From: a virus
Direction: 5' to 3' (one strand)
Virus record (IMG/VR): IMGVR_UViG_3300007770_000433
Coordinates: 1-20,962 of that record
DNA: 20,962 bases
Shown: positions 10,501 to 20,962 of the stretch, piece after piece
Layout of the letters: every line of letters starts with the position of its first letter
Numbering within the stretch: the stretch's first letter is position 1
Notes under the pieces: generated by a model
Told to the model about the DNA's origin: nothing
The model's database searches: none
Seen by the model: the letters and a program-made list of their open reading frames with translations, nothing else
Program-made: the position numbers and the translations under genes

Positions 10501-10585
10501 CGAGTTGAAGACAAGAGTTGATCAGGCAAGAGAGGACAAGGGCGAGTTTAGAAAAGCAACTGCCAACATAAAGAGGACGCTGTGA
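1535..10585 (+). CDS. giant phage polyvalent/internal virion protein with HExxH metallopeptidase-like motif (3016 aa)
   Basis: One uninterrupted 9051-base frame covers 43% of the window. What is seen: hydrophobic N-terminal segments near residues 142-155 and 293-308, the second preceded by a Glu/Gln helix (pattern E-x2-TEYAQ ... GALVGSLLG) that I associate with large phage polyvalent proteins; a long Lys/Glu-rich central half with apparent beta-rich modules (for example about 1467-1499); a zinc-peptidase motif HEVGVH with H1940, E1941 and H1944 and candidate third ligands E2000/E2001; a Lys/Glu coiled coil about 2316-2356; hydrophobic helices at about 2536-2556 and 2719-2769, resembling the C-terminal associated domain of such proteins (LPD38-like, from memory); and a basic coiled C-terminus. 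AGAGAG lies just before the ATG. Known of the class: virion-carried proteins delivered into the host. Ejection and peptidase activity are inferred; no lysozyme or transglycosylase motif was recognised. Confidence 0.88.
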   Translation: MVEYYREGALVGQEVPTTDTRTQYEIGMESPMGFQDIAPLATYQPSQRSDIGLAFSKGSRLLLGSGVTTFKGFTGSLLKEFGLEEAGARWLSDAYQSGLLMGMDVNEIDEQLKGPKNLGEIEDWKGAIAWGMNAVAEQVPNLMTTFAPAVIGTVIFKRPTLGTVGTLGAIDFLNTAEVYTDLLMETTESRPAVAASTGALMSLLDMIVPMRVLGKMGLGNDFASYFGKKIKDPRSGWPQMIGEMLANGAREGVTEYAQTMMEGMALNYVKENDKLFEFTQAQQEEQLEAGARGALVGSLLGIPISYAGRSARKKAKEYSNDALDDLVNKNINANKEDEAALGGEGFVLHGDTTVVSTAEKRILDEEGKRLFKEPLRSEWVVNSKGEQILRPNSEYERFLRTGEIEPIRFGEIARRFQAIEKGEDFMVTPEEAEVYRRKGIEIRKLIEKFNDQDRVNEINKKATARLKRLGIDAIYNYNVKSHDPEISWLRRKAVQDRYDPEPVVPTGDPSERPLTINPTTISRLLRIGKEKRARKAADTTARMQQPSEEKYKYKATDPIVATVKGKQRLPLGLPQQEDRDQRTTSEAKKLGWSIDNTTLVVTSTGDAKQKNNKNEYRSVYENPEYIVKKASPEGPTTADSATTLSISDWVVIDKSDGSVIKRVPAGKTTREQFNKSVEAGKPIFPVEIYMEGESNLRQLINEFADTTYDPRVEPQEVSDLESRSLEQLLSVTEKIIPTVGNKIRLFNKKKGVFSDDIVYTLDEPIKKITNKKTGAIGKRYVVTPVAGGVQKVIDLYPKKAPTVEETKKAKEVLETKRKEGTETKIRKPDESLKGDYIFVDHLRFAQLLREYDETRTTDEEAYVQDPLRTEEDRQEFLAEARKDEQYDVDVTDTGIEIERIEPKPDESGKTLLAGEQVQSNRQVLVEELNKNKKFKQNLIKVLTRLEFWNARAAKLSKQTTDAEKKGIISDETFEDDVPSDFDFLEKRTIGKKETSIQAFFNKKEKNFALLAGSDLDNIKKWVAKYARETSKQINKNIEDGIISEKDYANKELEVGRYIDEQVGVITAREKPETTRQEGIDVTAIDPRTGLRPTPETFRVKLTPSAAKKYGLAPNVFYEWETFSFPQWGESRDDFIKVAGQLVRQVRRGAESSEIVNVEKKRTIKKIKRDDFIETDPSVLPNTVPNKEGIDQAFIDPKSGVFIVRRAVDVGEGASRYDMYDFEVYLTYNDKLEYQGKIQNLNETLVEYEAMYVPTEEGPLTTALVKKIIPVQVYIEAIRTRPPGKIKKKKIKELITTDRFGTKDEVVQKISSGDLQRVLKLKDAKVKVKVSPSIVAKINSERKNLGMNPIETDAEFDVSLSRKSDNVIVNYEGSIREIKASSVVELSVESFVPNRVGAIEQYTTYLERTPETRGARLIASFKGESGQDMIAYSDFLEEMYGDTAHKYGMFGTERENMVEARTREFDKHSGEKVMLTLSGGQEIVGTITGVSDGTIRFYYPKTVKPVEIDVLNVERFQPLLKKPTYVAQEAVDDSIKISGNMVVFSPATPEKREFQTEDESPLKVQVFLRKDGTYRITVDGVTEETDLSAKGTVDFLNDLNKSSKGNINVYKLPDGIRKIEVAPVSLQIADKIDQGFVGPMPKDNMIRFVFEVGGEKINPLTGTIEKKGYGKDVSYETVADPLTGLKYKRRSDLVEAVSDNDVNALEKDVDKELTPTVKALGKVIEEVNKAEQIALEEKENNIQRDNYTARILPYEEVSSKPFSILPIGQEFVDRKGTQWEVALHDGRNTYLKFIGGKAPEFNFKLNYKGKNDEGKFEEGMEIAVFSGSTPSAMRVEVQLEDKSIGYDKYSIVNPVPADGTGSMSYNTGLTPNRFKELLGPLVGKLNVARLVNKGLIKIVQNQSDVPNAPLELGVKSVTRNGELIFITNNIREEEIMPVYIHEVGVHIGLKDFFSKYFPSLIEEVKLKRQDKAWADAFKNAEMVANQFTFTDSIARENFVAEEAMGYYIESTNNFKDSLWQKLIDAFNRSVAKIKMWFNKKLSNEEIVSFIRGAVRGMSERNFEDALNKVDEQYYSVANAGERAVDYLGGAVQDKLKDIDSARQTNYVQKSNAVWGSVKKFFDPFVALPKARLFRQMRSLLHGDLGKIEALGKAVIKNFADLTEAQNEELFKFFTTKGHVIDEKTVTNADLRRKAQALKIEIENIADAGLLRGIFPEASMEQLEELRGAYLPRVYMYWLLKSDERQPGQRTLGSMRYVKKREDELVEELADLWGQQKDVQYLLYRAVTVPQQDMAIIDFLSALSKRIAFSDTDEFRILNENIATKKEQIKEAKKAKDEEKVKSLNKELKDLNTAKKNFAGPRTQMGDTPWVMPNQWIEIEFTYRGKTVKQRTTLASLNNQINDLQEHLRLSNKVLKESAKETIQKRIADLEMARFNFFQSIEPSIKSKDEVAGKDQQEKILQPYYSSEYDINNFRRIPDNHKYGSMAGLWVRKEIHDDLVGNSDMVYGEANMFQKLFLPYGRHAKLVSIYKMMKVPMNPPTVVRNFVSNLVLLQLIGGVPFHKQPALLSAALKELRGMDSGKVFTHSTQKDENGNPRKFTAYELAKEQGISASTLTSAEMKKLEEVFQHMEKDGIWSIATGGKKVWNKLAGFSGDLYQNIELLGKVMAIMHKLETKSQRAELQDILANSDTPELSIEDIAIQESNRILFDYSEVHPFVRGARSSFLGAPFITFQVKVLPELLKVAIKHPYRFLPYAMMLGGMQAVFGSIPWVDDDWDKLEKLLPEWTKDNTMVFLPWKDSNGNIQAVDLSYFFPWSFYTQTFSHLRQGEFSRALVEGGIMGPMFQMATAISTGIDPWSQRPISNENDPLSDRVFDKMSYMNSMIMPPWLTRTGIVSLSSLGEAMFRLDPREVEGKLADLMLGRENVFGEPRRSFMGVLGAAVGLNPYAVSPKARSRQLRRFDVDIRKLESEIDYVKTNRKLSKNERVRKVNELKTRVDQAREDKGEFRKATANIKRTL

Positions 10586-10818
10586 GATTGGTATGCGTAG
10601 AATGGTTAGACATCTACGCATCAGCAGGGTGGGAAAAAGAAGATGAGATAGAGCCGCAAAACTTTTGGTCTGTCGGATACCTCATCGTTAAAGACTCAAG
10701 GGTGCTGAAGATTGCCAACACCAAGGATGCGGAGGGCAACTACTTTGGCATAACTGCCTTCCCCATCGGTTGCGTGGTGTCCATTACTGATATTCCCTCG
10801 ACAGTTTCCGCTGAGTAA
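10582..10818 (+). CDS. small hypothetical phage protein (78 aa, GTG start)
   Basis: I do not recognise a family. The 78 residues begin MRLVCVEWLD and form an apparent small alpha/beta fold: a short N-terminal strand, an acidic Trp-containing loop (GWEKEDEIEPQNFW), then strands around residues 31-46 and 52-68. It is soluble, with no signal peptide or Cys cluster. The GTG start overlaps the giant gene's TGA (GTGA) and is preceded by AGAGGA four bases upstream, so the start is well supported and probably coupled. Its last 35 bases overlap, on the opposite strand, the end of the metallophosphoesterase gene. Function unknown; as the last gene of the rightward structural block it need not be structural. 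Confidence 0.8.
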   Translation: MRLVCVEWLDIYASAGWEKEDEIEPQNFWSVGYLIVKDSRVLKIANTKDAEGNYFGITAFPIGCVVSITDIPSTVSAE

Positions 10819-11566
10819 CGGCGACTATCTCGTCGTAGTAACCCTCACCATCTAGTTGGTTTAACATAATCACTCCTCTCCACCACTGATGCTCAGTGTC
10901 TCTGCACCAGTTCTCAGAGTACTTGGGGTGACTATAGCATCCGGCACTAAGACCGAATATTTTCTGACCGTCAGGCCTCGTCTGTTCAGAATGGTTGTAC
11001 AAATGGGTGTGACCCTGTACCGCACTACAGTGTAGTTTAGAAACCAGCGTGAAGCCAAGGTGGACGCTACTGATGGGCCTTCCAGATATGCCAGAGGTAA
11101 AGTAGTGGCTGAAGGATATCCCTGCTACAGTCAGTACTGACTTGAATGCAGTAACCTTCCATCCGTTCTTCTCGTACTGTAGGTCACTGATACCAATGGC
11201 TCCATCTAACTCAGGCGCAGAGTTAGTCGCCCTGCTGATGCGATCCTCATGGTTGCCAAGACACATGTGCATCTTGGGCTTGTACTGCTTGTCCTTGTTC
11301 TTCCTCTTCTGGGCGTTGTGCGCCCTCAACGGTTCCATAAGTTTCTCTTGGGCTTCAATACAACTCTGTATATCTTTCTTGTAACGTTTGCCTTCAAAGC
11401 CTTTGGTTCCCTTGTCATAGGAAGACAGCGATGGCATGTCAGCAAAGTCACCCAGACATACTATGTACTCTGGCTTGTGTTCCACAATGAAATTACCCAG
11501 ATGGGTAAACCTCTCATTGTCATAGTCTGGGTTGGTATGTGCATCAGGAATTATAAGAAGGTTCAT
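10784..11566 (-). CDS. calcineurin-like metallophosphoesterase
   Basis: The 260-residue protein carries the full set of calcineurin-like dinuclear metal motifs in order: D8-x-H10 (PDAH), G39-D40-x2-D43 (GDFAD), G104-N-H-E107 (GNHE), H154 (SHYF) and G185-H-T-H188 (GHTH). The family hydrolyses phosphomonoesters or phosphodiesters, including nucleic acids and cyclic nucleotides, with two divalent metals. Spacing between the motifs is normal apart from a Lys-rich stretch at about 85-98. There is no signal peptide, so it should act in the cytoplasm. The ATG has GGAG eight bases upstream and overlaps the stop of the Cys-cluster gene as ATGA. It is the last gene of the leftward operon. Its substrate cannot be read from sequence; a role in nucleic acid processing is suggested by the neighbours only. 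Confidence 0.93.
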   Translation of the reverse strand: MNLLIIPDAHTNPDYDNERFTHLGNFIVEHKPEYIVCLGDFADMPSLSSYDKGTKGFEGKRYKKDIQSCIEAQEKLMEPLRAHNAQKRKNKDKQYKPKMHMCLGNHEDRISRATNSAPELDGAIGISDLQYEKNGWKVTAFKSVLTVAGISFSHYFTSGISGRPISSVHLGFTLVSKLHCSAVQGHTHLYNHSEQTRPDGQKIFGLSAGCYSHPKYSENWCRDTEHQWWRGVIMLNQLDGEGYYDEIVAVTQRKLSREYQ

Positions 11567-11889
11567 TTAGCGATCTCCAATACCTTGTTGTACTGTTCCC
11601 TGTTGTTACTGACCTTGGCCCATGCGACACAGTTAAAGTCCCTGCACATTTGAGGTCGCTCCTCGTATATGCCACACTTGTAGTTGTCTACTAGGTGAGA
11701 GCATCTAATCTTGATGCCAGTTTCTGTGGCTTCAATGTGGTCATGCTTTTCTACTATGGCATGTAACCACTGCATCTTCCTTGGGTCTTTCCAACTGGGG
11801 TTGATTTCAATCTCGCAACATAAAGCGCACTTGGTACACAGGCTCTCAGTTATGTCGCTCTCTTGTAGAGGCCAAGGGGAATTAGCCAT
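11563..11889 (-). CDS. YkgJ-family Cys-cluster (putative zinc/iron-chelating) protein
   Basis: The 108-residue protein has the family's Cys pattern: CxxCxxCC at C18, C21, C24, C25, then C63, and C72-x-I-Y-x3-RP-x2-C82-x4-C87. The family (YkgJ, UPF0153) is annotated as putative zinc- or iron-binding, and most members have no assigned reaction. It is a bare domain with no fusion, transmembrane segment or signal. The ATG shares a base with the stop of the upstream gene (TAATG) and there is no clear ribosome binding site, so translation probably depends on coupling. The 3' end overlaps the phosphoesterase start (ATGA). It lies two genes downstream of the reductase, but a functional link is speculation. 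Confidence 0.88.
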   Translation of the reverse strand: MANSPWPLQESDITESLCTKCALCCEIEINPSWKDPRKMQWLHAIVEKHDHIEATETGIKIRCSHLVDNYKCGIYEERPQMCRDFNCVAWAKVSNNREQYNKVLEIAK

Positions 11890-12362
11890 TAGGTGTATAG
11901 TTCATCTATAGGACGCAATTTATCTTGAGTTAATGTATACCCCGGCCCATGCCCCAAGTCGTTTATATTTTTATCAGATAGTAATTCATCTTTTAAGGCA
12001 AACCCCCTTATGATATAATCTGGAAACACTCCTGTTACCAACAGGTAAACATCAACCTCTTCCGATCTTGTGTTTAACTTGGCAACTAATTTTCCAGTTT
12101 TGTACTTTGTTGTTTTTACATCTATCTTTATCCCTCTATACTTAATATCCCAACCAGAGTCAGGCTCAAGTATCAGGCTTGGGTATACATTTAATACTTT
12201 GCTTGCGGCTATTTCCCCGCCAATGCCCTCAAGATCAGTTTGTTCTGATGATTGTTTTCCTATCTGTTGATCCGGTCTGCCATTTTTTCTAGCCAGTTCG
12301 TACCTTTGCTTTGCTAAAGTTTTACATACAACCTGTTCACCGAAGTTTAGAGATACGTTCAT
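11889..12362 (-). CDS. PD-(D/E)xK nuclease-like protein (157 aa)
   Basis: A restriction-endonuclease-like core is visible: a helix with E50 (GIGGEIAASKVL), D72 (GWDIKYRG) and the signature D81-V-K83-T-T on the next strand. This E...D...DxK arrangement is that of the PD-(D/E)xK superfamily, which includes Holliday junction resolvases, repair nucleases and phage exonucleases. The N-terminal 40 residues are Lys/Arg/Gln-rich and could bind DNA. It sits between the reductase and the YkgJ-like gene; six bases separate its ATG from the reductase stop, and no ribosome binding site stands at good spacing. The region is AT-rich compared with the reductase (see findings), suggesting a later insertion. 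Nuclease activity is inferred from motif order; the exact subfamily is unknown. Confidence 0.75.
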   Translation of the reverse strand: MNVSLNFGEQVVCKTLAKQRYELARKNGRPDQQIGKQSSEQTDLEGIGGEIAASKVLNVYPSLILEPDSGWDIKYRGIKIDVKTTKYKTGKLVAKLNTRSEEVDVYLLVTGVFPDYIIRGFALKDELLSDKNINDLGHGPGYTLTQDKLRPIDELYT

Positions 12363-12368
12363 TGTGTT

Positions 12369-14219
12369 TCACAGTTCACAAGCACCTCCTGTGCAGGCAA
12401 ACTCCTGACTGCTAGTGGTAACGTCCTCTTCCTCAAGGATCAAGTCCCAGTCAATCTCCTTTGGTATCTGCTTGGCTCTCTCTTTGTACTCTGTTTCATC
12501 ACAGTCCTCATAGGGAGCAGACTCATACGAGTGAGCCTCGTCTGCGCTAGGCAGGAAGGACACGCCAGATACAATATCAAAGTTGTGCCACACCCATGCG
12601 CCTACCTCTACCCACTCATGCTCCTTGACGTAGATAGTGACTGACGGTTTGTGTTCGCACCAGTGTATAGAGAATCTCTTCCATATCTCAAGATGCTCCA
12701 AGGCTGACAGGTCATGTCGGGTCAGAGACTTCTTGGGAGACTTCTGAGGGAACTCAAACACCCAAGCCTCTGCATTGTATGGGTCAGTGTGGTGCGGTAT
12801 TCCAGAGTCAATGAGGGCCTGTGATAGAGGGTCTTTCTTATCGTTGCGAACCCTCCGAATCAGGTGTGAATTGTAGCGAGGGTGTATCCCTGATGCACTG
12901 TTCACAAGTTGGCTGACCGTACCTGACGGCTTGACACAAGTGATGGCGGTACTCTCTGGGATTCCAAGTTTCTTTGCCCACTGTTTGTTTACCCTGATAG
13001 CGTGAGTCTTGAGAGACTCCAACTCATCTGCACTGGCGTTCATAACAACAGGGCAATCCATGATACCTGTCAGGCTAACGCCAAGCAGTCTCTCTTCCTC
13101 AGTGTTCCTCTTCCATGCGGGAGACAGATACCTAAAGTCAGTTAACGTGGACTGTAGAGTGCCAATGATAGTGGCGATCTCTACCTTGTTCTTGATGTCC
13201 TCAAGCGTATCGCCCTCTCTGCATACAGCCTCCGACAGATTACAGAATTGCTTTGGCCTGAGAATAATCTCAGAGCAGGGGTTGCAACCGAACTCATAGT
13301 CGCTGTCTCTGCGCTCTGGAACCATGCTCTTTGCGGCTTCACGATTGAAGATGCCACGCTCCCCACTGCGACTCTCGTACAGGGCAGTCCACTCACGCAG
13401 GAATACACCCATGTCAGGCTTCTCTGTATAGCATACGCTGTTGTTCGCCAAAGCCCTTTGAGGATTCTCAGCCCACCACTGACCAGACTTGGCATGACGC
13501 ATACGATCATCAGTCAGATTGGACAGCGAGATAGTGGCTGATCTACGCACACCACCGACTACCACTGACTCCCCGATAAAGCACACCAGATCGTGACACT
13601 CTATGGAGTTTAGTCTCCTGCCTGATGCTCCCCTGAACACGCTGACAAAGTGCCGGAACAGTTTTTCCAGTGGCTCTGGGCCTGATGCCCTGCCCCCGAA
13701 TGTCTTGAGCCTAGCACCCGCAGGCCTGATCTTGGACACATCCCATGTGGGAACCTGCCCCGCATACAACAGGCTGACCAGTTCCTTGAGGGCCTTTGCC
13801 CACCCAATCTTGCTATCCCTTACAACGATAACCGAATCGCTGTCGTGGAACTCATCTGCTACGTGAGGTAGCATGTTTATGTAGCCTCGCTCCACACTAA
13901 AGCCAACTCCTGTGCCACACATGAGAACATACATGCACTCATCGAATGCTCTTGGGCTGTCGATAGGAAGGTACGAGCAGTTATATCCGGCGACTGCATC
14001 CCTGTCCAATGCTTTACCCGCAGTCATCATGCACCTCATGCTAGGCATGACATCCATGTTAATGATGGCATCACGCACAGGCCCCAGATTAATGGACGTT
14101 CTGTTCTGGAAGAAGTCTACGTAACGCTCGACTGTCTCTTCCCATGTCTCCCTGCGCTTCTGCTCATCCAGATACTTGGCGTACCTAGACTTGTGTATAA
14201 ACTTTTGATACTCGTTCAT
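12369..14219 (-). CDS. nrdJ: adenosylcobalamin-dependent (class II) ribonucleoside-triphosphate reductase
   Basis: Makes deoxynucleotides from ribonucleotides using an adenosylcobalamin-generated thiyl radical. At 616 residues it is shorter than the monomeric Lactobacillus leichmannii enzyme (739). All catalytic residues can be placed against that enzyme: redox pair C81 and C326 (C119/C419), thiyl-radical C315 with N313 and E317 in NPCSEI (N406, C408, E410), and a C-terminal reducing pair C609/C614 in CTGGAC (C731/C736). The 11-residue spacing C315-C326 and the 5-residue spacing C609-C614 are identical to the reference. No intein or frameshift interrupts it. The ATG overlaps the preceding stop as ATGA, with AGGGG eleven bases upstream. 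Phages commonly carry such genes to feed DNA synthesis. Class assignment is firm; oxygen independence and B12 need follow from the class. Confidence 0.95.
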   Translation of the reverse strand: MNEYQKFIHKSRYAKYLDEQKRRETWEETVERYVDFFQNRTSINLGPVRDAIINMDVMPSMRCMMTAGKALDRDAVAGYNCSYLPIDSPRAFDECMYVLMCGTGVGFSVERGYINMLPHVADEFHDSDSVIVVRDSKIGWAKALKELVSLLYAGQVPTWDVSKIRPAGARLKTFGGRASGPEPLEKLFRHFVSVFRGASGRRLNSIECHDLVCFIGESVVVGGVRRSATISLSNLTDDRMRHAKSGQWWAENPQRALANNSVCYTEKPDMGVFLREWTALYESRSGERGIFNREAAKSMVPERRDSDYEFGCNPCSEIILRPKQFCNLSEAVCREGDTLEDIKNKVEIATIIGTLQSTLTDFRYLSPAWKRNTEEERLLGVSLTGIMDCPVVMNASADELESLKTHAIRVNKQWAKKLGIPESTAITCVKPSGTVSQLVNSASGIHPRYNSHLIRRVRNDKKDPLSQALIDSGIPHHTDPYNAEAWVFEFPQKSPKKSLTRHDLSALEHLEIWKRFSIHWCEHKPSVTIYVKEHEWVEVGAWVWHNFDIVSGVSFLPSADEAHSYESAPYEDCDETEYKERAKQIPKEIDWDLILEEEDVTTSSQEFACTGGACEL

Positions 14220-14497
14220 AACGTGACAGGCCCCTCGTCTACTTCGATCTCCAACTTGGCTATCTCAGACATTGGGATGATCCACTTGCTGTTATCGGCA
14301 AGGCCTATCTCATACACGGTGATGTCCTTGAAGGTACTCTTGGATGCCATGTCTTGCGCTAGTACCTCCTGCTTTCTGTTTGATTTCTTGGCCCAACATA
14401 TGGCCCCGATATCTATGATCACTGGATATTGCTGAAGGATCACAGTCCTTGTTCCCTGTGACCGTTTAAAAAACCTTACTTCTCTGTAAAATGACAT
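14216..14497 (-). CDS. hypothetical phage protein upstream of nrdJ (93 aa)
   Basis: I do not recognise a family. The 93 residues start MSFYREVRFFKRS with a basic N-terminus, followed by an alternating hydrophobic pattern (TVILQQYPVIIDIGAICW) that looks like strands rather than a membrane helix, and end acidic (EIEVDEGPVTL). It has one Cys. The ATG has GAGGA six bases upstream, inside the end of the previous gene, giving a 22-base overlap. The stop overlaps the nrdJ start (ATGA), so the two are probably coupled. A role beside the reductase is possible from position only; it shows no glutaredoxin or thioredoxin CxxC motif. Confidence 0.72.
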   Translation of the reverse strand: MSFYREVRFFKRSQGTRTVILQQYPVIIDIGAICWAKKSNRKQEVLAQDMASKSTFKDITVYEIGLADNSKWIIPMSEIAKLEIEVDEGPVTL

Positions 14498-14679
14498 TCA
14501 AGTTCCTCGTAATCGTCTTTCAGATTCTTTTTGATTGCGTACTCTATGTACTCTTCAAGAGAGACTCCCCAAAAACTTTTGAATACATCGCTCCAGTTTT
14601 TTGAGGAGTCTTTTCTCGACTTACGGTAGCAGTATCTAGCAAATGAATACTTCATATGCTCTGCTAGGTCATAGTTCAA
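14476..14679 (-). CDS. small hypothetical protein (67 aa, uncertain TTG start)
   Basis: I do not recognise a family. The product is small, helical-looking and charged, with a basic N-terminal half (RYCYRKSRKDSSKNW) and an acidic C-terminal half. The frame opens at TTG 14679, ten bases after the ssb stop, with AAGG only three bases before it, which is closer than usual. The next candidate is ATG 14655, giving 59 residues but with a weak ribosome binding site. The 3' end overlaps the next gene by 22 bases. It fills the gap between ssb and the gene before nrdJ in the same direction, which supports it being real. It is AT-rich, like the other short unknown genes here. Confidence 0.6.
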   Translation of the reverse strand: MNYDLAEHMKYSFARYCYRKSRKDSSKNWSDVFKSFWGVSLEEYIEYAIKKNLKDDYEELECHFTEK

Positions 14680-14689
14680 TGACCTTACA

Positions 14690-15061
14690 TTAGAAGGGAA
14701 TATCCTCTCCCTTCTCGACTACATCAGCGGTGTGCTTCTCTCCTCCTGCACCTCCTAGCATCTGCATTGTGTACCCTGTGATCTCTGTTACGTACCTCTT
14801 GATTCCCTCCTTGTCCTCATATGAACGGTTAGCAATTCTTCCCTCGACATAGATTTGTGATCCCTTGTTTACGTACTGCTTGATTACATCGGCAGTCTTA
14901 CCAAAGAACACAACCCTGTGCCAATCGGTTGTCTTGTTTTCACCGTAACCGCTGTTGGTTGCCAGTGAGAAAGACGCTACTGTGTCTCCCGATTTAGTCT
15001 CGCGGAACTCAGGTTCCTTGCCAACGTGACCCACTAATATCGCTTTGTTTACGCTTGCCAT
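14690..15061 (-). CDS. ssb: single-stranded DNA-binding protein
   Basis: Coats ssDNA during replication and recombination. The 123-residue protein has a full bacterial-type OB fold: N-terminal strand VNKAILVGHVGKEPEFRET, the segment VASFSLATNSGY, TDWHRVVFFGKTADVIKQYV and KGSQIYVEGRIANRSY. A short linker follows, then the acidic tip EDIPF at the C-terminus, which in bacterial SSB recruits partner proteins. It is shorter than E. coli SSB (178 residues) because the linker is short, as in many phages. The ATG has GAGGT ten bases upstream and overlaps the end of the exonuclease gene by 13 bases. It lies between the exonuclease and nrdJ. The intact DIPF tip suggests it can bind SSB-interacting partners, host or phage. 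Confidence 0.96.
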   Translation of the reverse strand: MASVNKAILVGHVGKEPEFRETKSGDTVASFSLATNSGYGENKTTDWHRVVFFGKTADVIKQYVNKGSQIYVEGRIANRSYEDKEGIKRYVTEITGYTMQMLGGAGGEKHTADVVEKGEDIPF

Positions 15062-15795
15062 CTAGCATCATACCTCTTGGTTAGTTTCCATAATTGTAAG
15101 GCCGCTTCAAACATACTAAACAGCCTCCCTCTTTCTTCCCATTGGTGTTCTGCTACATAACCGGGAGAAGAAAACGATACAAAAAGGTTGAGGAGTTTCC
15201 TGCCTCCACCTATCCCGTGATTGTAAGCCGCCAGTTGTACACCATAAGAGTCGTACACATCAGGCTTCTTACCTTCATCCAAAACTTCCTTGGTCTTGAA
15301 GTCAACCACCCACTCATCAGAGTACACATCTATCTTACCTCCGTACCCCATTGGGTGAGCGAATGACTTCTCCACCTTCCAGTCCTGATCGCCACAAACT
15401 TCTTTCATCTTTGCGAGAGTCTGCATGACCATGTGTATTTCGTTTGGGTCTTGTGATCCACAACTTCCAGTGAGTAGTTGTTGTTCAATCAGGTTGTGCA
15501 TGTACGTCCCTCTCTCAGCAGACTTTATCGAATGCTCTTTGGACAATGCAAACACACGCTTCTTGAACGCTGACTCCTCTTCATCCCAGAACTGTCTTGA
15601 TTCTAGCATTGACCCAAACAACTGGTCTTGAAAGTATCTGTTCAAACCGGGAGAGGCAACCACATCTTTCCAAACGGTAGACACGGAAGGAACCCAATCA
15701 TGTTTACGAGCGTCACGCAAGGTGGTATTACGCATACCTGTCTTGCCCTCAATTTCGTAATGCGGGTTGCCTTCCTTGTCATACCAGTGACTCAT
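15049..15795 (-). CDS. RecB/Cas4-like PD-(D/E)xK exonuclease (248 aa)
   Basis: Predicted DNA exonuclease of the RecB-like PD-(D/E)xK group. Motifs, numbered from MSHW: the helix RGTYMHNLIEQ with H100, G153-K-I-D156 on a strand, D165-F-K167-T-K as the catalytic signature, and Q187-x3-Y191 (QLAAY), the QxxxY box that marks RecB-type nucleases. I chose ATG 15795 because GGAG sits nine bases before it and because it gives the ATGA overlap (15792-15795) that recurs in this operon; an in-frame TTG at 15810 would add five residues. No Cys quartet of Cas4 iron-sulphur type is present (only two Cys). With SSB and an annealing-protein candidate beside it, it may resect ends for phage recombination or degrade host DNA; both are inference. 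Confidence 0.88.
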   Translation of the reverse strand: MSHWYDKEGNPHYEIEGKTGMRNTTLRDARKHDWVPSVSTVWKDVVASPGLNRYFQDQLFGSMLESRQFWDEEESAFKKRVFALSKEHSIKSAERGTYMHNLIEQQLLTGSCGSQDPNEIHMVMQTLAKMKEVCGDQDWKVEKSFAHPMGYGGKIDVYSDEWVVDFKTKEVLDEGKKPDVYDSYGVQLAAYNHGIGGGRKLLNLFVSFSSPGYVAEHQWEERGRLFSMFEAALQLWKLTKRYDARWQA

Positions 15796-16025
15796 TTCCA
15801 ATGACTCCAATAGTGTTCTTGTTTGAAGTTAAACTCTTTTGCCAGATTATGTATAGCAGATTGAGTTTCCAGACAGTCATTAGCCATCGCTGATCCAACC
15901 TCTAAAACATCTCTAAGAACATCGCTTGAACTGTTGATAAGTTTTAGAAGTAACTCCCTTTGCTCATCAGTGATCTGTTTCGCTATTCTCTTAGCGGGTT
16001 TCTTTGCTACTTTCTTCTTAGCCAT
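15792..16025 (-). CDS. small Lys/Ala-tailed protein, possibly DNA-binding (77 aa)
   Basis: I do not recognise a family. The first 17 residues (MAKKKVAKKPAKRIAKQ) form a histone-H1-like Lys/Ala/Pro tail, followed by about 60 residues of predicted helix (RELLLKLINSSSDVLRDVLEV, then ETQSAIHNLAKEF). I chose ATG 16025 because AGAGGA lies eight bases upstream and the overlap with the previous gene is then eight bases; an upstream in-frame start at 16097 would force an 80-base overlap and adds residues that do not look conserved. The tail could bind DNA or RNA nonspecifically. It stands between the annealing-protein candidate and the exonuclease, so an accessory recombination role is possible but unproven. 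One Cys. Confidence 0.7.
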   Translation of the reverse strand: MAKKKVAKKPAKRIAKQITDEQRELLLKLINSSSDVLRDVLEVGSAMANDCLETQSAIHNLAKEFNFKQEHYWSHWK

Positions 16026-16431
16026 TCTTAAATTCCTCTGATTCATCTTGACCATAAACACCATACTTGTATGCGCCGGATAGTTTGAGTACAGCACGTG
16101 ACAACGCTCTCTTCTCTGCCATCTCTACGACATACAACGTTGTGACATTCCCCTCTCTTCCTTTGCCAAACAACGCAGAGGCAAAGGTTTCAATGGTTTT
16201 GTCACCCTTCGTTGCAACTGCTTTCACAACTGCAAAGTCTTTCTGAGGCGGTACGCTCATCAGTTCAAACGATACCTTGATATCGTTGGCGTACTGTATC
16301 TTCTCAATCCCTGTCCTTGTGATGATAGGGATATTCTTTCCGCCTCGCTCAAGGTTAAAGATGTCCTCCTTAACTATGAGGTCGTTCTCTTTAACCAAGT
16401 CATTGAGGAAGTCTCGTTTACTTACCGACAT
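16018..16431 (-). CDS. possible single-strand annealing/recombination protein (137 aa)
   Basis: Not assigned to a family with certainty. The sequence has an N-terminal helix, a strand-rich centre (IPIITRTGIEKIQYANDIKV, then strands at about 52-58 and 66-74) and a late helix EMAEKRALSRAVLKLSGAY at 103-121. A beta sheet followed by an Ala/Arg helix with a TxxAxxRAxxR/G-like pattern is reminiscent of the Rad52/ERF/Sak annealing proteins of phages. The protein is short for those families, which are usually about 180-300 residues. The ATG has GGAGG six bases upstream. The setting supports the idea: NinB upstream, RecB-like exonuclease and SSB downstream. An alternative is a general ssDNA-associated phage protein of unknown role. 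Existence is firm; function is inference. Confidence 0.85.
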   Translation of the reverse strand: MSVSKRDFLNDLVKENDLIVKEDIFNLERGGKNIPIITRTGIEKIQYANDIKVSFELMSVPPQKDFAVVKAVATKGDKTIETFASALFGKGREGNVTTLYVVEMAEKRALSRAVLKLSGAYKYGVYGQDESEEFKNG

Positions 16432-16525
16432 GTTCTTCCTCCCACTGTTGCCATTGGGCTACGGTCTGCTCGTATTCCTCTTGGCCTTCCATCTCCTGAA
16501 TTTCTTCTTCAGTCATGTCATCCAT
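16418..16525 (-). CDS. 35-aa acidic microprotein between ninB and the annealing-protein candidate
   Basis: A short frame from ATG 16525 to TAA 16418-16420 encodes 35 residues, starting MDDMTEEEIQEMEGQ and ending EEHVGK. It is strongly acidic (14 Asp/Glu against one Lys) and has two Trp in QWQQW. Its start overlaps the ninB stop by eight bases and its end overlaps the next gene by 14 bases, so it fills exactly the only gap in this part of the operon. GGAG lies ten bases before the ATG. No family is recognised; acidic microproteins of phages can be DNA mimics or inhibitors of host enzymes, but nothing here shows that. It could also be merely a translational bridge. Confidence 0.6.
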   Translation of the reverse strand: MDDMTEEEIQEMEGQEEYEQTVAQWQQWEEEHVGK

Positions 16526-16898
16526 ATTCAATATGCTCCATTCGTACATTGAGTTGGTTTGCTAGTTGCTTGACCCTTTCGATCAAGCCCGACATCTCCT
16601 CGACATCAAGTTCAGAGGTACTGCGTACTCTGGTTCTGGGTGTGCCGTCGAGTCCTGTGTATTCTGCACTACCAAGATACTCCTGACTGACATACTCCTT
16701 GATCTCTTCTACGCTGTGTCCTGTGCTTTCTGCCAAGGCCCTAATTATAGCATGGAATAGATTGTTCTGCTCCACGCTACGACTATTTTTATGCTCCCTG
16801 ATTATGACTTCTTGCTTCTTACCGTCTAGGTCTATGTCAGTGACGGCATCTATGCATCTCCACTTAATGTCTTCTGATCTTATCACGTACCTCTTCAC
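16518..16898 (-). CDS. ninB: NinB-family recombination protein
   Basis: Related to lambda NinB (Orf), a recombination mediator that binds ssDNA and SSB and can replace RecFOR functions. The 126-residue length is close to lambda's 146. Features in line with the family: an N-terminal strand region (YVIRSEDIKW), the basic segment IREHKNSRSVEQNNLFHAII with its QNNLFH helix at about 33-52, and an acidic-to-helical C-terminal half (SVEEIKEYVSQEYLG; ELDVEEMSGLIERVKQLANQ). The start is GTG 16898 with AAGGAG seven bases upstream, giving a 35-base overlap with the preceding gene. It is followed by the 35-aa acidic frame. An HNH nuclease gene stands further upstream, a combination like the lambda nin region. 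Family call is from motif pattern, not a search. Confidence 0.82.
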   Translation of the reverse strand: MKRYVIRSEDIKWRCIDAVTDIDLDGKKQEVIIREHKNSRSVEQNNLFHAIIRALAESTGHSVEEIKEYVSQEYLGSAEYTGLDGTPRTRVRSTSELDVEEMSGLIERVKQLANQLNVRMEHIEYG

Positions 16899-17076
16899 CT
16901 GATATCTCCTTGAATAGTTCCTTCATACCTACGGTTGCTCCCTCTATGAACACCCCCCTTAACATTTCTTTGTAAGGCCCCATCTCTGTGTGTACGAAAA
17001 GCAACTTGGGGTATATGTCATCCTCAAAAACCTTGTCGATTCTTTCCAGTGTCTCCACTGCTCTGTCTTCTATCAA
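16864..17076 (-). CDS. small hypothetical protein (70 aa, TTG start)
   Basis: I do not recognise a family. The product is helical-looking and acidic, with two helix-like stretches (AVETLERIDKVFEDDIYPKL; VGMKELFKEISGEEVRDKI). The frame opens at TTG 17076, which overlaps the preceding stop as TTGA (17073-17076), the same arrangement as the ATGA junctions elsewhere in the operon; GGA lies nine bases upstream. A GTG six codons in is an alternative. The 3' end overlaps ninB by 35 bases. Its fixed place in a gap-free operon supports it as a gene. No role is proposed. Confidence 0.65.
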   Translation of the reverse strand: MIEDRAVETLERIDKVFEDDIYPKLLFVHTEMGPYKEMLRGVFIEGATVGMKELFKEISGEEVRDKIRRH

Positions 17077-17282
17077 TTTAGTTTATCCATGAAGGTTATG
17101 TTCTTGACCTCAACCCGATACGTAACGTTGTTGTTGACATATATGTTGTGGTCTAACTCTTGGGAAATTATGGCTCTCATAATCTCATCGTCCGGTTCGC
17201 CATCGTGTTCAATCTCTATGGATACTAAGACATCTTTAGTACGCCACACTCCATCGCTTTCCCTATCATCTGCAACGTCCAT
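17073..17282 (-). CDS. small hypothetical phage protein (about 69 aa, start uncertain)
   Basis: I do not recognise a family. The well-formed part is a compact alpha/beta unit: strand VLVSIEIEHDG, acidic helix EPDDEIMRAIISQEL, then strand VTYRVEVKNITF. I chose ATG 17282 because AAGGAG lies 11 bases upstream and because longer frames run far into the HNH gene; the overlap is then 58 bases. GTG 17246 (57 residues, 22-base overlap) starts closer to the apparent domain and is equally possible; ATG at 17342 would overlap by 118 bases and is unlikely. The stop is shared with the next gene's TTG (TTGA). Second gene of the leftward operon; function unknown. Confidence 0.68.
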   Translation of the reverse strand: MDVADDRESDGVWRTKDVLVSIEIEHDGEPDDEIMRAIISQELDHNIYVNNNVTYRVEVKNITFMDKLN

Positions 17283-17488
17283 CTGTACTGTGTCTCCTTG
17301 TCGTGTTCCAGAGAGTGGCAGTCCGAGTGACACTGCTGACAAACTGGTATGGTGAAATAGTCAGGAACTTTTCTGCCCATGCCTGCCCCAAGAGAACTGC
17401 TTCTTAGATGGTGGACTTGGACAGGGTGTGTTCCGCAGTGAATACATGGGTGTTCCGCTACCCACTGCATGTACTTCCTGCTTTTCAT
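17225..17488 (-). CDS. HNH-type zinc nuclease-like protein (YbcO/Rap-like), first gene of the leftward operon
   Basis: The 87-residue protein has a Cys-bracketed HNH core: C15-x2-C18 (HPCIHCGT), the His pair H26-H27 (VQVHHLRSS), the GAGMGRKVPDYFTIPVC segment, C50-x2-C53-H54 (CQQCH) and H58. This order (CxxC, HH, GMGRK, D, CxxCH) is that of phage HNH nucleases such as YbcO and related nin-region nucleases. It is predicted to cut DNA in recombination intermediates or during packaging; the exact job is unknown. The ATG at 17488 has no Shine-Dalgarno sequence, and a strong extended -10 box sits so close that the transcript would start at or almost at the ATG. It heads the minus-strand operon and shares the intergenic region with the replication block. 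Confidence 0.85.
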   Translation of the reverse strand: MKSRKYMQWVAEHPCIHCGTHPVQVHHLRSSSLGAGMGRKVPDYFTIPVCQQCHSDCHSLEHDKETQYRWTLQMIGKAMECGVLKMS

Positions 17489-17491
17489 TGG

Positions 17492-17520
17492 TTGATTATA
17501 TCATGTGGATTTAGTATAAT
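17492..17520 (+). promoter_or_regulatory. rightward sigma70-like promoter (P-right)
   Basis: TTGATT at 17492-17497 (four of six with TTGACA) and a perfect TATAAT at 17515-17520 are 17 bases apart. Initiation would fall near 17527, leaving a leader of about 25 bases before ATG 17552, with AGGA at 17542-17545. The -35 box overlaps the leftward -10 box, so the two promoters cannot be occupied together. It would drive the replication block. Confidence 0.65.
17495..17503 (-). promoter_or_regulatory. leftward extended -10 promoter (P-left), predicted leaderless
   Basis: On the minus strand TATAAT stands at 17500-17495, preceded by TGA, giving the extended form TGnTATAAT. A -35 element is poor: TTGGGA at 17525-17520 with 19-base spacing. 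Six bases after the -10 box lies the A of the HNH gene's ATG (17488), so the usual start point falls at or within a base or two of the start codon, and no ribosome binding site exists there. Promoter identity is by sequence match; leaderless initiation is inference. Confidence 0.6.
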
Positions 17521-17522
17521 CC
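17507..17522. promoter_or_regulatory. inverted repeat GGATT-N6-AATCC, possible operator
   Basis: A perfect five-base inverted repeat (17507-17511 and 17518-17522, six-base spacer) covers the rightward -10 box. Its centre is within the divergent promoter region. A dimeric repressor bound here would block P-right and, by reach, the weak -35 zone of P-left. The two HTH proteins encoded to the right are candidate binders. Five-base arms can arise by chance, so this is tentative. Confidence 0.35.
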
Positions 17523-17532
17523 CAAGTTCGTC

Positions 17533-17552
17533 TAATTTTTTAGGATAAATTA
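17533..17552 (+). promoter_or_regulatory. leader inverted repeat with the ribosome binding site in its loop
   Basis: TAATTT (17533-17538) and AAATTA (17547-17552) are perfect complements separated by eight bases that contain the AGGA ribosome binding site (17542-17545). In RNA this would place the site in the loop and the first base of the ATG in the stem. The stem is all A-U and weak, so it could equally be a DNA operator or a chance feature of AT-rich leader sequence. Confidence 0.3.
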
Positions 17553-18088
17553 TGAGCCTAAGAAGAATACTCAAGGCACTAGACCTTGACCTCACAACGT
17601 CTGAGAAAATGATTCTTATCCTTCTATCAGACAATGCTAATGATGAGACAGGAGAATGTTGGCCCTCACAAAAATACCTCGCTAACAGAGCGGGAATGTC
17701 CAGACAGAATGTTAACTTAATTATCAATAAGTTACGTGATAAAGGACACATATCTTTTGAACACAGGAAGGGGGAGAATGGACAGAGAAGTAACATGTAC
17801 CGAATCCTTACCCTGTCAAATGAGATGACACCCCCTGTCAAGTCAGATGACACAGAATCTGTAATAGAATCTATACATATGGTGAACAACAGTATCTGGG
17901 ATGTATGGGAGCAGTTAGCAGGGCCTAATTCCAGATCAGTATTGGGCCAGTTAATCAAGAACAATGGCGAGAATGAGGTAGCCAAAGCCATAGGCATTGT
18001 GCTGTTGAAAAGACCCGCTGATCCCAAGCAATATCTGTACGGCATACTCAGAAACAACAAGCCAAAAAGAAAAGGATTCCAAGCATGA
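17552..18088 (+). CDS. winged-helix phage replication initiator-like protein (178 aa)
   Basis: N-terminal residues about 1-90 form a winged helix of the HTH_36/phage replication protein O type: LTTSEKMILILLSDNANDET, the marker CWPSQKYLANRAGMSRQNV containing the recognition helix, INKLRDKGHISFEHRKG and a wing ending NMYRILTL. A linker and a C-terminal helical part (SVLGQLIKNNGENEVAKAIG) follow, ending basic (NKPKRKGFQA), as expected of a helicase-loading region. It is proposed to bind the origin and deliver the helicase, since the primase-helicase gene overlaps its stop (ATGA, 18085-18088). It could instead, or also, regulate the divergent promoters just upstream. AGGA stands six bases before the ATG. 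Confidence 0.83.
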   Translation: MSLRRILKALDLDLTTSEKMILILLSDNANDETGECWPSQKYLANRAGMSRQNVNLIINKLRDKGHISFEHRKGENGQRSNMYRILTLSNEMTPPVKSDDTESVIESIHMVNNSIWDVWEQLAGPNSRSVLGQLIKNNGENEVAKAIGIVLLKRPADPKQYLYGILRNNKPKRKGFQA

Positions 18089-19791
18089 AAGACTACTCAG
18101 ATTTTGGTATCAAGTTCACTGGCACAGGCGGTCAGGTTGCAACCACTTGTCCTAAGTGCAGTAAGGACAGGCGGAAGAAGAACGCCAAGTGTCTGTCAGT
18201 AAACACAGATGAGAAGATTTGGTTGTGTCACCACTGTGGTTGGAGTGGTAGCCTGTTGTCGGGTACTGATGACAGCCTTGGTTTACACTGGCGTAAACCT
18301 GAGTTCAGAAAGCCAGAGCCTGTACCCAAGAGCGATCTGCCAAAGGCTACGATTGAGTGGCTGAACAAGAGAGGCATATCAGAGGAGACAGCCATAGACT
18401 GTGGTGTTGGCATGAAGAAGGTGTACATGCCTCAGTCTGAGGAGGAGAAGATGGCCCTCACGTTTCCCTACTACCGCAACGGTGAGTTGGTGAACGTGAA
18501 GTACAGGTCAGGCTCCAAGGAGTTCAGGTCTGAGGTTAATGCAGAGCGCATACTGTATGGGCTTGACGATATCTCAGATGAGGATGGGATTGTTATCTTT
18601 GTCGAGGGAGAGATGGACAAACTATCTCTGTATGAGGCGGGGATAAAGCAATGTGTCAGTGTTCCTGATGGTGCGCCATCCGTTGAGTCAAAGAACTACT
18701 CATCCAAGTTTGAGTTCCTCAACGAGTCACGTATCAACGGAGTGGAGAAGGGCAGGACTTACATCATAGCGGTGGACAACGATGCCCCCGGTCAGAGACT
18801 GCAAGAGGAACTGGCACGTAGACTTGGCAAAGAGGTATGCAGTAGGGTGACATGGCCTGAAGACTGCAAGGATGCCAACGATGTACTGGTCAAGCATGGC
18901 AAGAAGGTGTTGGCTGAGTGCATCGAACATGCGGAGCCATACCCCATAGCGGGTACGTTCACAGCCAGTGATCTGTCCGACAAGTTGGGTGAGTTGTATG
19001 ACAACGGATTGGAGAAGGGAATTTCTACAGGTTGGTCGTGTCTCGACAAACACTACCTAGTCAGGCCGGGATGCTTCTCTGTGGTGACAGGTATACCATG
19101 CAGTGGCAAGTCCAACTGGATTGATTCTATGATGGTGAACATAGCCAAGAAGGATGGTTGGAGGTTCGCCATCTTCTCACCAGAGAATCAGCCACTGGAG
19201 GATCACATGTCCCGCATCATGGAGAAGTATGTTGAGGCCCCATTTAGACAGGGCTTTACAAGACGCATGACCAAGGAAGAACTGAACTACGCCAAGGATT
19301 GGGTGAAGGAACACTTCCACTGGATACTGCCAGAGGATGATGCAGAGTGGACACTGGGGAAGATACTGGAGACAGCGAGGGGATTGGTCAGGAGGCATGG
19401 GATCAGGGGCTTGGTGATTGATCCGTGGAATGAGTTGGAGAGTGCGAGGGGTGCGTTCTCTGAGACAGAGTACATTGGAGTGTGCTTGAAGAGGGCGAGA
19501 CAGTTCGCCAGAAGGTACGGCATACACCTGTGGATAGTTGCCCACCCTGCCAAGATGTACCGTGACAAGGATGGAGGCTACCCAGTGCCTAGCCTGTGGG
19601 ATATCTCAGGTTCTGCACACTGGAGGAACAAGTCAGACTCAGGTGTGGTGATCTACCGTGACCTGTCAGACCCTGACTCCAAGTTGGTAGACATCCACAT
19701 TCAGAAGCAGAGGTTCAGACAGGATGGTGCTATGGGAATGGCATCGCTTAGATACAACCCAATCGTAGGAGATTACCATGAAGTTAACTAA
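18085..19791 (+). CDS. bifunctional primase-helicase (T7 gp4/Twinkle-like)
   Basis: Primes and unwinds DNA at the fork. Its 568 residues match T7 gp4 (566). Domains in order: zinc-binding site C22-x2-C25 and C48-x2-C51 (CPKC, CHHC); TOPRIM primase core with the catalytic glutamate in VEGEMDKLS (E175) and DND at 231-233; DnaB-like helicase with Walker A GIPCSGKS (336-343), SPENQP after strand 2, Walker B LVIDPWNE (D446), H3 motif IVAHPAK (H487) and a Ser/Gly/Lys-rich H4 region (DISGSAHWRNKSDSG). Both halves are complete, so primase and helicase activity are expected. The ATG overlaps the initiator stop (ATGA) and AAAGGA lies eight bases upstream. No DNA polymerase gene is adjacent in this window. 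Confidence 0.95.
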   Translation: MKDYSDFGIKFTGTGGQVATTCPKCSKDRRKKNAKCLSVNTDEKIWLCHHCGWSGSLLSGTDDSLGLHWRKPEFRKPEPVPKSDLPKATIEWLNKRGISEETAIDCGVGMKKVYMPQSEEEKMALTFPYYRNGELVNVKYRSGSKEFRSEVNAERILYGLDDISDEDGIVIFVEGEMDKLSLYEAGIKQCVSVPDGAPSVESKNYSSKFEFLNESRINGVEKGRTYIIAVDNDAPGQRLQEELARRLGKEVCSRVTWPEDCKDANDVLVKHGKKVLAECIEHAEPYPIAGTFTASDLSDKLGELYDNGLEKGISTGWSCLDKHYLVRPGCFSVVTGIPCSGKSNWIDSMMVNIAKKDGWRFAIFSPENQPLEDHMSRIMEKYVEAPFRQGFTRRMTKEELNYAKDWVKEHFHWILPEDDAEWTLGKILETARGLVRRHGIRGLVIDPWNELESARGAFSETEYIGVCLKRARQFARRYGIHLWIVAHPAKMYRDKDGGYPVPSLWDISGSAHWRNKSDSGVVIYRDLSDPDSKLVDIHIQKQRFRQDGAMGMASLRYNPIVGDYHEVN

Positions 19792-20032
19792 CGAACAGGC
19801 AGAGGAAGTATTGATTGAACTGAGGGAGTGTGAGTTAGAGATCAGGGAGATTGCCAAGATGTTCAACGTGTCTGTCAAAACTATTTCTTTAATAAACAAA
19901 GGAAAAATCTACAAAGTTAAGGATTATAATTACCCTGTTCGGGAAAGGACTCGTGAGTACAGGGAGCCGGGATGCAGGAGTGAGTTCTGGGATAATTACT
20001 ACCCAGAATCACAATCAGTTTTAGATTACTAA
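19778..20032 (+). CDS. small helix-turn-helix protein (84 aa)
   Basis: Residues about 22-43 form a helix-turn-helix of the homeodomain-like/resolvase type (IREIAKMFNVSVKTISLINKG), followed by GKIYK, a pattern common in small phage proteins and in the C-terminal parts of HNH endonucleases. The rest is polar, Tyr/Arg-rich and probably extended. It presumably binds DNA as a regulator or accessory factor. The ATG has AGGAG six bases upstream and overlaps the primase-helicase gene by 14 bases. It may act on the divergent promoter region or on late genes to the right; neither is shown. Confidence 0.82.
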   Translation: MKLTNEQAEEVLIELRECELEIREIAKMFNVSVKTISLINKGKIYKVKDYNYPVRERTREYREPGCRSEFWDNYYPESQSVLDY

Positions 20033-20043
20033 AGGTTTCTTAA

Positions 20044-20448
20044 GTGAGTGAAGGAGAGGAATTATTTCTTAGTCAGTGTGTAGCCTGTGGCCTCCCTGTT
20101 CCAGAGAGAGAGCATGCATTTCTGGAGCGGAGGAGGTTCAGGTTTGACTTTGCTTGGGTCGATCTGATGTTGGGGGTTGAGATTGAGGGAGGGGTGTACT
20201 CCAGAGGTAGGCATACCAGAGGGGTGGGGTACAGTCGTGACCTAGAGAAGTACAACTTGGCGGCGATGCATGGGTGGACTGTGTACAGGTTCACCACGCA
20301 GGATGTGAAGAGCGGTGTGGCTGTTGGGTTTACGACAATAATAATAAATAAAGGGGGATTGATTGATGGGTATAAGGATATCGGCGGAGAACTTATGCTC
20401 CCTGACTCCAACAACAGAACTAAACCAAAGGCCAAGGGTAAGGCCTGA
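20044..20448 (+). CDS. Vsr/DUF559-like endonuclease (134 aa)
   Basis: A PD-(D/E)xK fold of the Vsr/DUF559 kind is visible: N-terminal helix with E9, strand RFRFDFAWVD with D35, strand VEIEGG with E46 and E48, then the conserved stretch SRGRHTRGVGYSRDLEKYN with H57, D66, K69 and N71, and GWTVYRFT. Proteins of this pattern are nicking or branch-cleaving endonucleases, common in phages. The C-terminal 15 residues are Lys-rich. The start is GTG 20044 with AAAGG eight bases upstream, 11 bases after the HTH gene. The last 83 bases are shared with the next gene in another frame. Nuclease activity is inferred from motif conservation. Confidence 0.85.
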   Translation: MSEGEELFLSQCVACGLPVPEREHAFLERRRFRFDFAWVDLMLGVEIEGGVYSRGRHTRGVGYSRDLEKYNLAAMHGWTVYRFTTQDVKSGVAVGFTTIIINKGGLIDGYKDIGGELMLPDSNNRTKPKAKGKA

Positions 20449-20887
20449 AGTTATATGCTACGTGTTGGCAGGGATATCTAAGGAAGCGTCTAACTTTGTC
20501 AGACTGAAGTACGCCAATGACGAGAGCAACATGAGGCCAGTAGCCCATGAACTGGTGAGGCGTGTGAGGAAGAGAGCGCCCAAGGTTCTGAGTGATGGCG
20601 CTTTGTGGAAGTTGGCACTGATTGCAATACGAGAATCCATAGCAGACCACATGTGTGGCACGTGCAATGGAAAAACATGGGTGAGTACAGGAACTAAACA
20701 GATTGTGTGCTTCACATGCAAGGGAACAGGGAAGAGGAGCAAGAGGAGCAAGGACATAGCGGAGGATTTGGAGATGTCGCTGAAGTTCTACAACAAATAC
20801 TGTAGATATATTGTGGAAAGGAATATGTTGGGGATACTTGCTACATATGAGGGGGAATTGCACAATGCCTTCAGAAATAGGCTGTGA
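20366..20887 (+). CDS. DnaJ-type zinc-finger phage protein, possible Q-like antiterminator (173 aa)
   Basis: The central feature is a four-Cys zinc site, C97-x2-C100-N-G and C115-x2-C118-K-G-T-G (CGTCNGKTW, CFTCKGTGK), as in DnaJ zinc ribbons and several lambdoid Q antiterminators. Helical regions lie before (about 38-95, basic, RRVRKRAPK) and after it (130-165). Q proteins act late in the early block to switch on late genes, and this is the last gene of the rightward early block, which fits. A general nucleic-acid-binding zinc protein is the alternative. I chose ATG 20366 because AGGGGG lies eight bases upstream; a TTG one codon earlier is less likely. The start overlaps the endonuclease gene by 83 bases. 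No stop or shift within. Confidence 0.78.
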   Translation: MGIRISAENLCSLTPTTELNQRPRVRPEVICYVLAGISKEASNFVRLKYANDESNMRPVAHELVRRVRKRAPKVLSDGALWKLALIAIRESIADHMCGTCNGKTWVSTGTKQIVCFTCKGTGKRSKRSKDIAEDLEMSLKFYNKYCRYIVERNMLGILATYEGELHNAFRNRL

Positions 20888-20962
20888 GAGGCCCTGTAAT
20901 GGCCTGTATTGAACGATCTCTAGTGGACTGGTAGGGTGGTACAGGGTAGGCTAAGTTGACCG
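20888..20962 (+). other. non-coding tail of the window
   Basis: The 75 bases after the zinc-finger gene hold no credible gene (the longest frame is about 16 codons). A five-base stem AGGCC/GGCCT with a seven-base loop stands at 20889-20905 and lacks a T tract. TTGACC at 20955-20960 matches five of six bases of a -35 box, but a -10 box, if any, is beyond the window end. Confidence 0.4.

Follow-up and report, generated by a model that had tools for sequence, protein, structure and literature searches.

Two oppositely oriented phage operons meet in the window, the whole stretch of 20,962 nucleotides of an IMG/VR virus record that was analysed here, and the 63 bp between them (17489-17551; 27% GC, 73% AT) raise the question of whether so short a gap can hold promoters for both directions and, if so, whether their overlap amounts to a switch. 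The genes that define the gap are listed below.

17225-17488, minus strand: DUF968 HNH-endonuclease-like gene, at the head of the leftward operon (Pfam PF06147 E=2e-14; phrog_96 HNH endonuclease)
10784-17488, minus strand: leftward operon, predicted from gene order
17552-18088, plus strand: replication initiation O-like protein (HTH_36), at the head of the rightward operon (profile matches; ATG at 17552)
18085-19791, plus strand: primase-helicase gene (phrog_239 E=2e-96)

The leftward operon begins with the HNH/DUF968 gene, whose ATG lies at 17488 on the minus strand, and continues with small ORFs, NinB, a phrog_22961-like ORF, an exonuclease, SSB, a ribonucleotide reductase-family protein (12369-14219; phrog_367 E=2e-176) and a metallophosphoesterase. 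The rightward operon closes with 20363-20887, where there are a weak resemblance to Q-like anti-termination families (phrog_127 E=0.0016) and a DnaJ-like zinc motif. A search of the initiator gene for iterons or an origin found nothing beyond a tandem pair of imperfect 21-nt direct repeats (17811-17853, spacing 22), which could belong to an origin. Positions 1535-10585 form a single ORF of 3016 aa, the first 1155 residues of which gave no tblastn match in the phage collection. The same collection held no DNA-level relatives of the window, and the initiator protein had no relative among the bacterial and archaeal genomes.

The sequence-only reading had placed two divergent promoters in this gap, with the -10 box of each lying against the -35 region of the other. 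The elements found are given below.

17492-17497, plus strand: rightward -35 box, TTGATT (4/6), from direct reading and promoter scan; invariant in 8/8 distinct intergenic sequences
17515-17520, plus strand: rightward -10 box, TATAAT (6/6), 17-bp spacer, from direct reading and promoter scan
17524-17527, plus strand: predicted rightward transcription start from -10 geometry, leader of about 25-28 nt
17542-17545, plus strand: Shine-Dalgarno-like AGGA, 6 nt before the initiator ATG; AGGA or AGGG in all relatives
17495-17500, minus strand: leftward -10 box, TATAAT (6/6), read as ATTATA on the plus strand, from direct reading
17502-17503, minus strand: TG of the leftward extended -10 (TGnTATAAT), from direct reading; invariant in the 7 close sequences
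17518-17523, minus strand: leftward -35 position at 17-bp spacing, GGGATT (2/6, weak), from direct reading
17488-17489, minus strand: predicted leftward transcription start from -10 geometry, at the start codon or one base before it

All of the coordinates proposed for the overlaps were correct: the leftward -10 box and the rightward -35 box share 3 bp (17495-17497), and the rightward -10 box overlaps the weak leftward -35 zone by another 3 bp. The gap thus contains two recognisable sigma70-type promoters on opposite strands with overlapping core elements. Together with gene orientation, these elements support a leftward promoter for the HNH, NinB, exonuclease, SSB and ribonucleotide reductase genes and a rightward one for the initiator and primase-helicase genes. 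The proposal that RNA polymerase could not occupy both also agrees with the geometry, since each promoter covers core elements of the other. With this geometry, and with promoter footprints as they generally are, steric hindrance should prevent simultaneous occupancy and leave room for one RNA polymerase at a time. As both -10 boxes are perfect, competition between the two directions is possible, and the promoters may be stronger than the E. coli bidirectional promoters that have been tested.

The rightward promoter would be of the standard -35/-10 type, and it is the sole 10/12 match within 13000-20962 to an E. coli-like sigma70 consensus, which may not be that of the host. In Bacteroidota the -10 element differs, and the Shine-Dalgarno sequences found before many genes of the window speak mildly against a host of that type.

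The leftward promoter has two properties that the sequence-only reading had overlooked. Its -10 is extended (TGA-TATAAT, TGATATAAT, 17503-17495), which would explain the poor -35 (TTGGGA, a 4/6 match, occurs at 19-bp spacing), and it ends only 6 nt ahead of the ATG at 17488. If +1 is placed seven bases past the end of the -10, the leftward RNA would begin with the A of the ATG, at 17488, so that the leftward mRNA should be leaderless. There is no Shine-Dalgarno sequence upstream of the HNH gene; this is weak evidence by itself, because a loose criterion finds such a sequence at 13 of the 21 gene starts in the window, leaving the HNH gene among eight without one. The start codon itself is homologous in relatives, and those whose HNH gene comes after the helicase gene in the same orientation share the M-K-[SN] beginning. 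The gap therefore presents the sequence features of a leaderless promoter, namely a -10 directly before a homologous start codon and no Shine-Dalgarno sequence. An internal HNH start at M7 (17470) was also considered and rejected, as distant relatives have L at this position and the M1-K2 start is shared. Leaderless mRNAs with an immediately preceding -10 are known (PMC9031893, PMC12340547), and the lambda cI mRNA is a leaderless example from a phage (PMC9031893). These data suggest that the leftward promoter is probably of the extended -10 type, giving a leaderless mRNA from the HNH AUG.

In the contigs L182, L183 and L185/L186 we observed a separate divergent arrangement, in which an HTH protein and a 320-aa ORF lie opposite the HNH gene. 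Direct reading of L182, L183 and L185 shows that there, too, the HNH ATG follows an extended -10 at a distance of 7 nt (TGCTATTCT, TGGTAATCT and TGATAAACT), and the promoter scan scored two of these three sites.

To judge how often such elements would arise by chance, we scanned 13000-20962 with a score that counts matches out of 12 and that was picked after the sequence had been seen; sites of at least 9/12 numbered 5, against 10.1 expected in shuffled sequence. Dinucleotide shuffling of the 63-bp, 27% GC gap (20,000 shuffles) gave a rightward site as good as the real one in 6.6% of cases, a leftward one in 5.2% and the two together in 0.3%; only 3 of the 20,000 had ATTATA-N14-TATAAT with its exact spacing. 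Single boxes are unremarkable in AT-rich DNA, where -10-like boxes are common, and the pair is moderately striking.

We regard the conservation of the pair as stronger evidence than these chance statistics. A search with the initiator protein identified 15 related viral contigs holding the divergent pair and the gap, with initiator identities of 58 to 100%. Their gaps represent eight distinct types, all of which keep the divergent pair, and the leftward -10 is TATAAT or TACAAT in every one, with the same overlap; its conservation is partly explained by the bases shared with the rightward -35. The rightward -10 reads TATAAT, TAGAAT or TATAGT in the close relatives and is weaker in L013/L014 (TAATAT, 4/6, with a TGn; TGATAATAT), in which the leftward promoter has also lost the TG of its extended -10. 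Among the seven close types, T-12, A-11 and T-7 of both -10 boxes are invariant and all -10 substitutions fall at tolerant positions, while the n of the leftward TGn (17501) is T, A or C. The distance from the leftward -10 to the ATG is 6 nt in all but L013, where it is 8 nt. Variable columns in the seven close types are fewer within the elements (3/17) than in the other promoter-region columns (18/29, P=0.0038), a contrast that holds with L013 added (6/17 versus 25/29, P=0.0006) and is weaker across the whole gap (3/17 versus 22/46, P=0.027). These P values are a guide only: they assume that the columns are independent, and this independence is overstated because the few relatives compared are close to one another.

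The explanation that we consider likely is that two divergent early operons start in the gap and are read by the host sigma70-type RNA polymerase, the rightward promoter being standard and the leftward one extended -10 and leaderless. As each -10 box occupies the place of the opposite promoter's -35, a single polymerase would bind at a time and initiation would alternate between the directions. The ratio of expression of the two operons would then be set by the relative strengths of the promoters and not by a regulated on/off switch.

The same elements could be read in other ways. If only the rightward promoter were real, the leftward TATAAT would have arisen as a by-product of the AT-rich -35 region, and transcription of the leftward operon would start elsewhere. 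Three of the six leftward -10 bases are indeed common to the rightward -35, such boxes are frequent in AT-rich DNA and L013 lacks the TG; nevertheless, the leftward-specific positions 17499, 17500, 17502 and 17503 are invariant in the seven close sequences while 17501 and 17504-17509 vary, the box stands 6-8 nt before an ancestral start codon, and no other leftward promoter of equal score is present in 17481-18300, which makes this reading unlikely. It is very unlikely that the 7-bp inverted repeat GATTATA-N14-TATAATC is the operator of a dimeric regulator and resembles promoters incidentally. The window and the L002- and L006-type sequences have this dyad in perfect form, but one or both arms are changed in L003, L004, L007, L013 and L015 (5-6 of 7 pairs kept), and good -10 boxes remain in the close sequences despite these changes. 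The operator was rejected for this lack of compensatory change or covariation.

The sequence-only reading had gone further and described the pair as a compact built-in switch, and here our analysis does not follow it. In a regulated switch, a phage or host regulator would favour one promoter early on and its partner at later times, and exclusion between polymerases would convert this into an either/or choice between recombination and replication genes. The geometry permits this, and the overlapping divergent promoters of pLS20 act in such a way with RcoLS20 (PMC4207663). According to Bendtsen et al., as cited in that paper, a switch requires unequal promoters and a regulator that acts differently on each. 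Five E. coli bidirectional promoters showed no measurable competition at basal activity, and activating one direction repressed the other (PMC12825309); these published pairs thus compete only once one side is activated. Against a switch, the four long relatives, which are linear and possibly incomplete records, contain no integrase and no CI-like HTH_3 above the cut-off, their sub-threshold HTH_3 matches being located in the initiator gene, and no conserved operator lies between the promoters, the only dyad noted being that formed by the two -10 boxes, broken without compensation in 5/8 sequences. Early infection also normally needs replication and recombination products together. We consider a regulated switch quite improbable. 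A search of the relatives for a single-subunit RNA polymerase (PF00940) gave no match, and the control likewise had no match anywhere.

We also compared the arrangement of the flanking genes. In relatives with a helicase about 60% identical, HNH, NinB, exonuclease and SSB follow the helicase co-directionally, and the stretches of these relatives that were examined gave no initiator homologue. Because these relatives carry the block co-directionally, the divergent junction is specific to the clade of the window, and the promoter pair would sit at a clade-specific rearrangement junction. It is a doubtful but conceivable extension that this rearrangement, by putting the recombination operon back-to-back with the O-like initiator, fixed a single-occupancy pair in which polymerase exclusion links the expression of the replication genes to that of the recombination genes, with the leaderless arm favoured under different translation conditions. 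At present the finding is modest and ordinary. If its predicted activity is real, the pair would be a natural, compact and conserved case of phage early promoters that exclude each other, one of the two arms being leaderless, and the short fragment would allow competition between polymerases to be measured directly.

By its elements, the gap would be an overlapping divergent sigma70-type promoter pair and so belong to a known kind of promoter. Phage lambda also has divergent early operons, with recombination genes in one direction and O-like replication genes in the other. Its PL and PR lie far apart with the repressor region between them, whereas in the window both predicted starts fall in one 63-bp gap with no repressor gene. 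Pc and Pr of pLS20 are also overlapping divergent core promoters in which the polymerase itself excludes the other direction, as the geometry suggests here, but pLS20 also has looping, operators and a regulator dedicated to them (RcoLS20), and our analysis found none of these here (PMC4207663). The bidirectional promoters of E. coli and Salmonella described by Warman, Grainger and colleagues likewise have divergent starts in a site too small for two polymerases, and in them the -10 elements dominate and binding is mutually exclusive, as would be the case here judging from the geometry (PMC12825309, PMC10268837). That class is defined by one shared, near-symmetric -10 and by a distance between the starts that is mostly 10, 18 or 23 bp. 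An octamer of this shared form occurs at 19923-19930 within an 84-aa ORF (ATTATAAT), with a perfect TATAAT on both strands and overlapping -10 boxes; it is coding sequence and may be due to chance. The pair in the gap falls outside the definition: it has two separate -10 boxes at a distance of 14 bp, each sharing bases with the place of the opposite promoter's -35, and about 36-39 bp lie between its predicted starts.
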